64,000 nucleotides of DNA from an uncultured bacterium (GTDB lineage Bacteria > Verrucomicrobiota > Verrucomicrobiia > Verrucomicrobiales > Akkermansiaceae). How positions within the stretch are numbered: position 1 is the stretch's first letter; each line of letters starts with the position of its first letter. Both the position numbers and the translations under genes were made by a program. Location: positions 1 through 64,000 of the forward strand of contig CAMACY010000003.1 of assembly GCA_945831585.1 (NCBI GenBank). The letters are read 5' to 3'. The notes under the pieces were generated by a model. The model was not told the DNA's origin, did not search any database, and saw only the letters and a program-made list of their open reading frames with translations. Below are positions 47,864-51,442 of the stretch, piece by piece.

Positions 47864-48838
47864 TCAGAGCTGCACACGGGCAGCGACGGAGCGCGTCTGC
47901 GGCAGGATGTACTTGTGCAGTTCCACGCAGGCTCGGCACGCGCCGAACTCGGCGATGCAGGCGGCGGCGAGCTTGTACGCCAGCGTTTCGAGCAGGACGG
48001 TCGGCTCCGCCGCAGCGATGGCGGCCAAGCGGCGGCAGAGGCGGTCGTAGTCGATGGTGGCGTCCAAATCCTCGCCCATGGCGGCGAAGCGTCGGGGCGG
48101 TGTGATGCGGATGTCGGCGCTCAGGGGCTGGGCGGTGGCGCGCTCCTCCTCCGGCACCCCGATGCGGGCGCTGAGCCGCAGTTGGTGAATGCAGATGCTG
48201 TCGTCGTCAGGGGCGGGGCAGCGCTCCATGAGGCGGCGCAGGGCATCGAGGTCGGGCACGATGAGGTCGGGGCCGGCGGCGGCGAGCCGCGCGGGGCTGT
48301 TGTAGCCGGTGAGCACGCCGATGCCGGTGATGCCGGCGTGGCGGGCGGCGTGGATATCGTGCTCCATGTCGCCGATGAAAGCGGTATCGGCTGCGAGCAG
48401 CCCGTGCTGCGCCATGAGGCTGCCGATGTGCTCCACCTTGTTGCGGATGCCGGAGTGGACGGCCTCGAAGTAGGGGTAGAGCCCCAGCGCACGCGCCTGC
48501 GCCTCAAAAGCGGCGGGATCCATGCTGGTGAGCGCCAGGCAGCGGATGCCCCGCGCGCGGCAGTACTCGAGAAAGGTGCGGGCGTGCGGCAGGATGGTGA
48601 CCCCTACCGGCGAGCGGTCAAAGGCATAGCGGTAGTGGTGCTCCAGCTCCTCCAGCGGCACGCCCGGGGTCTTGCGGGCGTAGTAGTCGGGGTAGGGGAG
48701 CTGAAACTCCTCGCGGAACGCTTCAAGACTCAGCGGCGCACACCCGTATTGCGCGAGCACATAGTTGGTGGCATCGAGGGTGAGCGCGAGGTCGTTGCAG
48801 AGGGTGCCGGACCAGTCGAAGAGGAGGTTGCGGAACAT
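47864..48838 (-). CDS. Fusion of HAD-superfamily hydrolase and dihydroneopterin aldolase (FolB) domain
   Basis: HAD motifs FDWSGTL, LALTSMD, NKVEHIGSLM, FIGDMEHDI; C-terminal ICIHQLRLSARIGVPEEERATAQPLSADIRI...DATIDYDRLCRRLAAIAAAEPTVLLETLAYKLAAACI FolB-like. Confidence 0.85.
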   Translation of the reverse strand: MFRNLLFDWSGTLCNDLALTLDATNYVLAQYGCAPLSLEAFREEFQLPYPDYYARKTPGVPLEELEHHYRYAFDRSPVGVTILPHARTFLEYCRARGIRCLALTSMDPAAFEAQARALGLYPYFEAVHSGIRNKVEHIGSLMAQHGLLAADTAFIGDMEHDIHAARHAGITGIGVLTGYNSPARLAAAGPDLIVPDLDALRRLMERCPAPDDDSICIHQLRLSARIGVPEEERATAQPLSADIRITPPRRFAAMGEDLDATIDYDRLCRRLAAIAAAEPTVLLETLAYKLAAACIAEFGACRACVELHKYILPQTRSVAARVQL

Positions 48839-48844
48839 GGAAAA

Positions 48845-49822
48845 TCAGCGTTTCGCCGGGTCTTGGGCATAGCCCTCCTTGGCGCTGGTGGTGATGATGC
48901 GGTTTTTGAGCTGGTACTTGCGGATGCTTTGCTTGAGCTCGGGGTTGATGAAGGGGTTGTCCTTGCCGTAGCGCGCCCAGGGACCGCCCGGCACGAGGGC
49001 GAACTCCACAAAGCGCCAGTGGACGGTGGCCATGCCCCCGGTGATGCCCAGATAGTCGCGCACGGCGGGCGAGATATCGATGCCGGCGGCCTTGTTGGCC
49101 TGATTCTTGGGGCGCTTGTTGCCGAACACATACTCCCAATCATCGGTGGTGAAGGGGCCGCAGTCCTCCCACTGGGCGTAGCAGTAGCGCCCCTTGTAGT
49201 AAATCTGCACCCACATGCCGCGGCAGACCGACTCGTACTTGCCGCCCTTGTCGCGCCGATACCAGGGGATAACCTTGGCGGCCTCGGGCTTGGGCCCTCC
49301 CTTGTCGATGTCGTTGTAGGGCAGAGCGACGTAAAAGGGATTGAGTAGGGGGGTGAAGCCCTTGGGCGCAAAGGTCTTGGGGTCGCGGTTGGCGGGGTTG
49401 GGGTCGTCGAAGCCGCCGTAGTTGTCGTCCCAGTTGCTATCCCAGCTGCTGGCGGTGTTGGGGGTGGGGTTGCGCTTGGTGGCCAGCTCGCCGATGTAGA
49501 AGTAGGTCGCGGTGATGTCGAAGTGCCAGGGGTAGACGCCGATGCGGCGCACTTGCGGCAGCTTCTTGGGGTCGGGGAAGTTGCGGCGGTGGCTTTGGTC
49601 AAAGGTGGGGCGGATGGGGCCGGCTTTGATGGCGGCGGCGCGCAGACTTTCCTCGCTCATCTGCCGCCGGGTTTCGGAGGCAATGCGGGTGCTGAGCTTG
49701 GAGGCGGGGATGCTGCTGCGCTTTTTGCCGCTGCCGCTCAGCCCGGCCGCACCCGTTGGCAGCGCGCCGAGCAGGAGCGCGGTGAGCAAGAGGGCGGCAA
49801 GAGAGTGACGGAGCAGCGGCAT
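48845..49822 (-). CDS. Secreted protein, possible RlpA/expansin-like double-psi beta-barrel
   Basis: Signal peptide; ATYFYIGE...NPFYVALPYNDID...GRYCYAQWEDCGPF...AGIDISPAVRDYLGI. Confidence 0.6.
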   Translation of the reverse strand: MPLLRHSLAALLLTALLLGALPTGAAGLSGSGKKRSSIPASKLSTRIASETRRQMSEESLRAAAIKAGPIRPTFDQSHRRNFPDPKKLPQVRRIGVYPWHFDITATYFYIGELATKRNPTPNTASSWDSNWDDNYGGFDDPNPANRDPKTFAPKGFTPLLNPFYVALPYNDIDKGGPKPEAAKVIPWYRRDKGGKYESVCRGMWVQIYYKGRYCYAQWEDCGPFTTDDWEYVFGNKRPKNQANKAAGIDISPAVRDYLGITGGMATVHWRFVEFALVPGGPWARYGKDNPFINPELKQSIRKYQLKNRIITTSAKEGYAQDPAKR

Positions 49823-49843: not shown

Positions 49844-51442
49844 TTACCAGGCGTGCAGCACGCTGGGGCGCGCCTGTGGCAGCTTGTCGGGCGCATCGAG
49901 GGTGTAGTGCAGCCCGCGGCTTTCTTGGCGGCGGATGGCGCAGTCCACAATGAGCGAGGCCGTGAGCGCCAGGTTGCGCAGGTCAATAATCTCGGGCGTG
50001 ACGCGGTAGCCCCAGTAGTACTCGTTGATTTCGCGGTTGATGTTGCGCAGGCGTGTGGCCGCGCGCTGCAAGCGGTGGTTGGTGCGCACAATGCTCACAT
50101 AGTCGGTCATGGTGCGGCGCACCTCGTCCCAGCAGTGGTAGAGGATGGCGAGGTCATCGCGCTCGGCCTTGGCACCGTGGCGCCAGGCGGGAATGGGATA
50201 GTCCTCCATGCTGTGCGCCAGCGGTAGGGTGCGCAGCATGCGGCTGAGGGCGCGCTTGGAGATAACCACGCACTCCAGCAGCGAGTTGGAGGCCAGTCGA
50301 TTAGCTCCGTGCAGCCCCGTGCAACCCGTCTCGCCCGCTACGAACAGCCCGCGCAGCGTGCTCGCGCCGTCGATGTCGGTCTGCACCCCGCCGCACTGGT
50401 AGTGGGCAGAGGGCACCACGGGAATCATGTCCTTCTCCGCGTCGATGCCGTAGCTCTTGCAGGTCTCGTAGATGTAGGGGAAGCGCTCCGCCATGAATCC
50501 CTTGGGCTTGTGGGTCATGTCGAGGTACATGCAGGGGTGCCCCGTGCGCAGAATCTCGCTGTTGATGGCGCGCGCCACGATGTCGCGCGGCGCCAGACTC
50601 TTGCGCGGGTCGTACTTCTGCATAAACTCCTTGCCGTCCGGCCCTTTGAGGATGCCGCCTTCGCCGCGCACCGCCTCGGAGATGAGGAAGGTGAGCCCGT
50701 CGCGGTCGCTGCTCTTGGGGTTGTAGAAGGTGGTGGGATGGAACTGGACAAACTCAAGATTGCTGATGTTGGCTCCCGCGCGCCAGGCCATTGCCACGCC
50801 GTCGCCGGTGGCCGTGGCGGGGTTGGTGGTGTACATGTAGACGCGCCCCGTGCCGCCCGTGGCGAGCAGGACGCGGTCGCTGCGGAAGATGTCGACCTCA
50901 CCCGTGGCGGGATCGAGCACATAGGCACCCAACACACGATCCTCCGTCACGCAACCGAGCTTGGCCGTGGTGATGAGGTCGATGGCAATGCGGTGATCCA
51001 GCAGGGTGATGTTCGGGTGCGCTTGAGCGGCGTGGAGTAGTTTGGTGCTGATTTCCAAGCCGGTGGTGTCCTTGGCGTGCAGGATGCGGCGCTTGCCGTG
51101 ACCGCCCTCGCGCCCGAGCTCGAACTCGCCGTCCTTCTCGGTGTCAAAATCGACCCCCCAGGAGAGCAGGTCGCGGATGGCGGCGGGAGCCTCCGTCACG
51201 ATCGTGCGCACGGCGGCCTCATCGCAAAGTCCGGCTCCGGCATCGAGCGTATCGGCTACGTGCTCCTCAAAGCTGTCATTCTTGTCCGTCACGGCGGCAA
51301 TGCCACCCTGAGCCTTGGCGGAGCTGGAGACAAGGGGGTCGCTCTTGCACAGGACAATCACCTTACCGTGTTCGGCGGCGCGCAGAGCAAAACTCAGCCC
51401 CGCGACACCGCTGCCGATGACGAGGAAATCTGTTGTAATCAT
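49844..51442 (-). CDS. nadB: L-aspartate oxidase
   Basis: TDFLVIGSGVAGLSFALRAAEHG, AQGGIAAV, EGGHGKRRILHAKDTTG, CGGVQTDIDGASTLRGLFVAGETGCTGLHGANRLASNSLLE. Confidence 0.97.
   Translation of the reverse strand: MITTDFLVIGSGVAGLSFALRAAEHGKVIVLCKSDPLVSSSAKAQGGIAAVTDKNDSFEEHVADTLDAGAGLCDEAAVRTIVTEAPAAIRDLLSWGVDFDTEKDGEFELGREGGHGKRRILHAKDTTGLEISTKLLHAAQAHPNITLLDHRIAIDLITTAKLGCVTEDRVLGAYVLDPATGEVDIFRSDRVLLATGGTGRVYMYTTNPATATGDGVAMAWRAGANISNLEFVQFHPTTFYNPKSSDRDGLTFLISEAVRGEGGILKGPDGKEFMQKYDPRKSLAPRDIVARAINSEILRTGHPCMYLDMTHKPKGFMAERFPYIYETCKSYGIDAEKDMIPVVPSAHYQCGGVQTDIDGASTLRGLFVAGETGCTGLHGANRLASNSLLECVVISKRALSRMLRTLPLAHSMEDYPIPAWRHGAKAERDDLAILYHCWDEVRRTMTDYVSIVRTNHRLQRAATRLRNINREINEYYWGYRVTPEIIDLRNLALTASLIVDCAIRRQESRGLHYTLDAPDKLPQARPSVLHAW

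Follow-up and report, generated by a model that had tools for sequence, protein, structure and literature searches.

A HAD-FolB fusion protein of gut Akkermansia and its relatives as a candidate phosphatase of the pterin branch of folate synthesis

According to PMC1971073, the product of GTP cyclohydrolase I (FolE) is passed to a Nudix pyrophosphatase, then to a phosphatase that is "believed to be" non-specific, and then to FolB, the dihydroneopterin aldolase. The literature that we consulted assigns no gene to this phosphatase of the folate pterin branch and puts the activity down as non-specific (PMC1971073). The same paper describes the specificity of Nudix enzymes as hard to predict by homology, and it marks FolQ, the Nudix dihydroneopterin (DHN)-triphosphate pyrophosphatase, as fused to FolB in Parachlamydia. 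This fusion, from a neighbouring phylum, is a precedent for joining FolB to the dephosphorylation that precedes it, and it is the nearest precedent found for the HAD-FolB and HAD-NUDIX combinations reported here.

Among HAD proteins, the phosphoglycolate-phosphatase-like HAD-IA structures 2ah5, 3sd7, and 3mc1 resemble the protein under study (P0001) in fold (TM-scores on target of 0.87, 0.78, and 0.85-0.86, respectively) and in the order of their motifs. They were solved as single-domain HAD proteins, whereas the P0001 family has Ser two residues past the nucleophile (motif I +2) and a GDMxHD motif IV and is partnered with FolB or NUDIX. LHPP, a member of the NagD clade with a cap type other than that of the P0001 HAD, differs from the P0001 family in having no folate link. 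It is a HAD protein that shares with P0001 the Ser in place of Asp at motif I +2, and its substrates are pyrophosphate, phosphohistidine, and phospholysine (PMC11277029).

P0001 is encoded in a window of 64,000 nucleotides, and its host is a gut Akkermansia. It has a HAD domain and no NUDIX, whereas no HAD is mentioned for Parachlamydia in the passages of PMC1971073 consulted. A keyword search of the literature, which covered few subscription journals and in which most matches were judged by title and abstract, retrieved no paper describing this HAD-NUDIX or HAD-FolB protein. The individual domains are already known; it is their combination that gives a candidate for the phosphatase step.

The HAD-FolB protein of Akkermansia

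The original prediction described a single 324-residue ORF with HAD motifs I-IV followed, with no break, by a FolB-like C-terminus. Its coordinates, strand, and Pfam content all agree with our analysis (Table 1). HAD_2 (PF13419; 60.1 bits against a gathering cut-off of 23.8) and FolB (PF02152; 66.9 against 31.8) lie in one frame, at the N- and C-terminus, respectively. The domain search proposed as a check thus recovered both domains above their gathering cut-offs, and the C-terminus, whose failure to match FolB profiles had been named as grounds for abandoning the prediction, matches PF02152. The HAD motifs read DWSGT (I), TSMD (II), K134 (III), and GDMEHD (IV).

Table 1 Features of the P0001 gene and its neighbours in the window
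Feature	Position	Strand	Remarks
HAD-FolB fusion ORF (P0001)	47864..48838	-	324 aa plus stop; same ORF in 23/25 Akkermansia genomes sampled; AlphaFold2 model
HAD_2 domain (residues 5-175), candidate DHN-monophosphate phosphatase	48314..48826	-	PF13419 E 3.9e-16; top PDB fold match 2ah5 (HAD-like hydrolase)
HAD motif I D8-W-S-G-T12, Ser10 where second Asp is usual	48803..48817	-	invariant in 35-member alignment A1
HAD motif III Lys134	48437..48439	-	invariant in alignment A1
HAD motif IV G156-D-M-E-H-D161	48356..48373	-	G156, D157, M158, H160, D161 invariant in alignment A1
FolB domain, residues 215-319, dihydroneopterin aldolase with catalytic E232, Y264, E284, K309	47882..48196	-	PF02152 E 2.7e-18
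nadB	49844-51442	-	neighbour of P0001 gene
Secreted protein	48845-49822	-	neighbour of P0001 gene

Because the same unbroken ORF recurs in 22 other Akkermansia genomes (51-65% identity), the fusion is real rather than a frameshift artefact. These counts come from a whole-protein search of an order-level genome sample, and a second search recovered the unbroken ORF once more. The phyletic survey called for by the prediction therefore places the fusion in nearly all Akkermansia sampled, and five further genomes, two from the same family (G131 and G093) and three from the same order (G006, G009, and G014), also encode a HAD-FolB fusion without NUDIX. The nearest public locus belongs to an Akkermansia MAG (64% identity). 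The gene had also been placed in a minus-strand run with nadB and a gene for a secreted protein. Both neighbours are present on that strand; the other Akkermansia examined do not share the arrangement, which so says little about function, and we discarded it as a clue.

An AlphaFold2 model of P0001, built from an alignment of 25 rows, has a mean pLDDT of 87.7. The best matches of this model in a search of PDB folds were HAD phosphatases, with 2ah5 first. The top 50 matches listed span the HAD part alone; FolB was assigned from its sequence profiles and its catalytic residues. P0001 has a full-length match to the FolB domain with all four catalytic positions intact (E232, Y264, E284, and K309, which correspond to Glu22, Tyr54, Glu74, and Lys99 in Mycobacterium tuberculosis numbering). 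These four residues are kept without exception in 109 classified FolB sequences (41 fused and 68 operonic). P0001 differs from canonical FolB in that the domain sits behind a HAD domain and scores below the TIGR00525 equivalog cut-off (55.1 against 72.15 bits). A separate canonical folB would have weighed against the prediction; P0001 is the sole PF02152 match in its genome. In genome G295 of family f8, where the HAD is a separate, unlinked gene, a circularly permuted YpsA (SLOG) domain precedes FolB in one fusion (L201:3710-4621).

The HAD domain has the attributes of the HAD_2 superfamily: the profile match, the nucleophile Asp, Thr/Ser in motif II, Lys in motif III, and two Asp in motif IV. 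D8, K134, D157, and D161 are invariant in alignment A1, in which identity to the domain of P0001 is 25-66%. The second Asp of motif I is the general acid/base in most HAD phosphomonoesterases. This residue, which defines the classical DxD type, is replaced by Ser10 in P0001 and by Ser throughout the family, as the prediction had noted for this one protein. Among 123 homologues readable at motif I +2, 119 have Ser; the exceptions are two Clostridia homologues with Asn and two generic HADs with Asp. The stand-alone HADs encoded in Clostridia at L134:143-727 and L135:232-804 are 25-26% identical to the P0001 HAD and have the motifs DWNGT and GDMEHD.

NUDIX and folB partners of the HAD in other genomes

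In other Verrucomicrobiota, a HAD domain 40-50% identical to that of P0001 runs on into a NUDIX domain, and folB follows. A HAD fused to a NUDIX with folB directly downstream is the arrangement in most of the other Verrucomicrobiota loci examined. We quantified it by scanning genome contigs with a FolB-containing protein as the query; the resulting 71 HAD loci are thus not a blind sample, though it was chiefly the HAD part that anchored the matches. HAD and NUDIX share one ORF at 67 of the 71 loci, and NUDIX is the next ORF at one (L080). The folB gene lies directly downstream at 51 loci and further downstream within 2.5 kb at seven. Two loci encode HAD-NUDIX-FolB as a single ORF and one (L062, Akkermansia) encodes HAD-FolB without NUDIX. 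No folB was found within 2.5 kb at six loci despite sufficient room, and the contig edge was reached at the remaining four. Pfam annotation identified the triple fusion in three genomes (L122, L127, and L212). At L158/L204, L041, and L050, the HAD adjoins folB without a NUDIX. HAD and folB are unlinked in family f8, and the HAD family does not occur everywhere: within the order, many genomes with a FolB have no strong HAD orthologue.

The NUDIX domains of these relatives match PF00293 with E-values of 1e-15 to 1e-25, and the Nudix-box residues G40, E46, R54, E55, E58, and E59 are invariant in the NUDIX alignment A2. All 27 sequences compared with NCBIfam PRK09438 (DHN-triphosphate diphosphatase, NudB/FolQ) match weakly and miss its cut-off (member 1, 29.2 against 103 bits). 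On the HAD tree, the presence or absence of NUDIX requires at least five changes, and genomes sharing a state form clustered groups. The branches are long and the order of NUDIX gain and loss is uncertain, so we do not claim a single sequence of events.

HAD-NUDIX proteins also occur in a distant taxonomic class, represented by a MAG titled Deltaproteobacteria (L133), whose HAD is 25% identical to that of P0001. Its gene order (L133:3759-7080) is folB, a RibD_C-type reductase, folE (GTP cyclohydrolase I), PTPS, and finally HAD-NUDIX, the start of which overlaps the PTPS gene. The substrate of the RibD_C-type reductase could be a pterin or dihydrofolate. Within the same class, folE-PTPS-[HAD-NUDIX] recurs in L265 and L267, with a methylenetetrahydrofolate reductase gene near the former, and PTPS-[HAD-NUDIX] in L264. 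In L268, folB lies opposite folE, PTPS, and a NUDIX that lacks the HAD (L268:6193-6669; 53% identical to the L133 NUDIX), with an MTHFR-like gene a few kb further on. Since the FolE product is dihydroneopterin triphosphate, the folE linkage in this class strongly suggests that this compound is the starting substrate of the enzymes encoded after folE, including HAD-NUDIX.

Proposed function and competing readings

NUDIX, HAD, and FolB fit three consecutive steps one to one, and we therefore propose the HAD for the middle one. The domains, their fusions and gene order, the conservation of catalytic residues, and the phylogenetic spread are all direct observations, from which we infer the substrates of the HAD and NUDIX domains. 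The NUDIX fused to the HAD in most other Verrucomicrobiota loci would convert dihydroneopterin triphosphate to the monophosphate and pyrophosphate. The HAD would then strip 7,8-dihydroneopterin monophosphate of its remaining phosphate, Asp8 acting as the nucleophile and Asp157 and Asp161 binding Mg2+, and would hand dihydroneopterin to FolB, although any such channelling is likewise our reading of the fusions. FolB would cleave dihydroneopterin to 6-hydroxymethyl-7,8-dihydropterin, and HAD-NUDIX plus FolB would thus cover every step between the product of GTP cyclohydrolase and the substrate of FolK.

Judging from sequence and gene context, we assign a probability of roughly 0.6 to the HAD domain of P0001 being a dedicated dihydroneopterin-monophosphate phosphatase and to P0001 being a bifunctional folate enzyme. 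On balance we also favour the broader proposal that the DxS-motif HAD family of Verrucomicrobiota and the distant class, fused to NUDIX, FolB, or both, has this dedicated function, and that in some members a single polypeptide takes DHN triphosphate through all three steps to hydroxymethyldihydropterin. The original prediction had argued from the FolB fusion that the HAD carries out the missing dephosphorylation; HAD-NUDIX genes next to folB, the triple fusions, and the folE-PTPS clusters lend this further, comparative support. Several observations count against the assignment. Motif I lacks its second Asp, and the Ser variant LHPP acts on substrates of other kinds (PMC11277029). The HAD is missing as a strong orthologue from many FolB-containing genomes of the order, and it is without a nearby folB at six of the 71 loci and in family f8. 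NUDIX scores far under the DHN-triphosphate diphosphatase cut-off and a FolB score under the TIGR00525 equivalog cut-off also count against it.

The shared Ser of LHPP keeps alive readings in which the HAD acts on pyrophosphate or another phosphoanhydride. One is that the HAD is an inorganic pyrophosphatase that clears the pyrophosphate released by NUDIX and pulls that reaction forward, another enzyme being the DHN-monophosphate phosphatase. HAD-NUDIX is the commonest arrangement, LHPP with its Ser at +2 is active on pyrophosphate (PMC11277029), and the inorganic pyrophosphatase BT2127 is among both the sequence and the fold neighbours of the HAD; however, generic phosphatases outrank BT2127 in both searches. 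This reading also gives no obvious reason for pairing the HAD with FolB where no NUDIX intervenes, as in the fusions of Akkermansia and the five related genomes and at the loci where the HAD simply adjoins folB, and we regard it as a genuine rival, though an unlikely one. We give still less credence to a HAD that attacks DHN triphosphate directly at its phosphoanhydride bonds, either alone or jointly with NUDIX, and that can replace NUDIX where that domain is absent. Ser at +2 would suit good leaving groups, to judge from the description of LHPP (PMC11277029), and none of the four Nudix matches in the P0001 genome, one of which looks RppH-like, was recognised as an orthologue of the linked NUDIX. 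An unrelated Nudix could nevertheless perform the step, specificity being hard to predict by homology (PMC1971073), and the HAD would be redundant in carriers of both domains.

A HAD that no longer works as a phosphatase and has become a structural or regulatory partner for FolB and NUDIX is about as improbable as direct cleavage of DHN triphosphate. It would account for the loss of the second motif I Asp in every family member, but members with as little as 25% identity to the P0001 domain all keep the nucleophile Asp, the motif III Lys, and the two Mg-binding Asp, which suggests retained catalysis. The least probable of the readings considered is that FolB takes DHN monophosphate directly and frees glycolaldehyde phosphate, which the HAD dephosphorylates. 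The top-scoring models for the HAD are phosphoglycolate phosphatases, whose substrate is also a two-carbon phosphate, and an archaeal protein is annotated as a DHN-monophosphate aldolase (PMC5041015). The score is 47 bits against a cut-off of 180, though, as any HAD-IA protein would give, and the FolB catalytic residues are those of an ordinary FolB.

Since the candidate DHN-monophosphate phosphatase is physically linked to the enzymes that precede and follow its step, the question is directly testable with one purified protein. If the function is confirmed, a DWSGT...GDMxHD HAD next to a NUDIX or folB would become an annotation rule, the pathway would be completed in many Verrucomicrobiota, and small-molecule phosphatase chemistry would extend to HADs without the second Asp.

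Folate genes of Akkermansia with and without FolB

The P0001 genome encodes folE2, with no PF01227 folE found, a QueD-like PTPS, and a weaker second PTPS match. Its folK lies about 16 kb from the P0001 gene on the same contig, just beyond the end of the window. In three Akkermansia genomes (G010, G057, and G087), Nudix matches occur 4-5 kb from folE2 with other genes between them, and a dedicated NUDIX next to folE2 was therefore not upheld.

Two of the 25 Akkermansia genomes, both near-complete, lack the HAD-FolB fusion and any FolB: G057, apparently A. muciniphila ATCC BAA-835, and G073. Both keep folE2, folK, and a PTPS of the same type. Replacement of FolB by a PTPS-III was rejected for these genomes, in which the PTPS corresponds to the one of relatives with FolB and retains the QueD-type Cys motif. 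These two Akkermansia may depend on folate or pterin from outside or may use another enzyme. The published minimal medium includes a vitamin solution (PMC5902328) and therefore gives no verdict on their folate need. The apparent loss of FolB in ATCC BAA-835 bears on predicting which Akkermansia make folate. Separately, a KsgA-like rRNA methyltransferase with a C-terminal Nudix domain is encoded as one ORF at L179, L181, and L183, in Akkermansia G010, G057, and G087, respectively.
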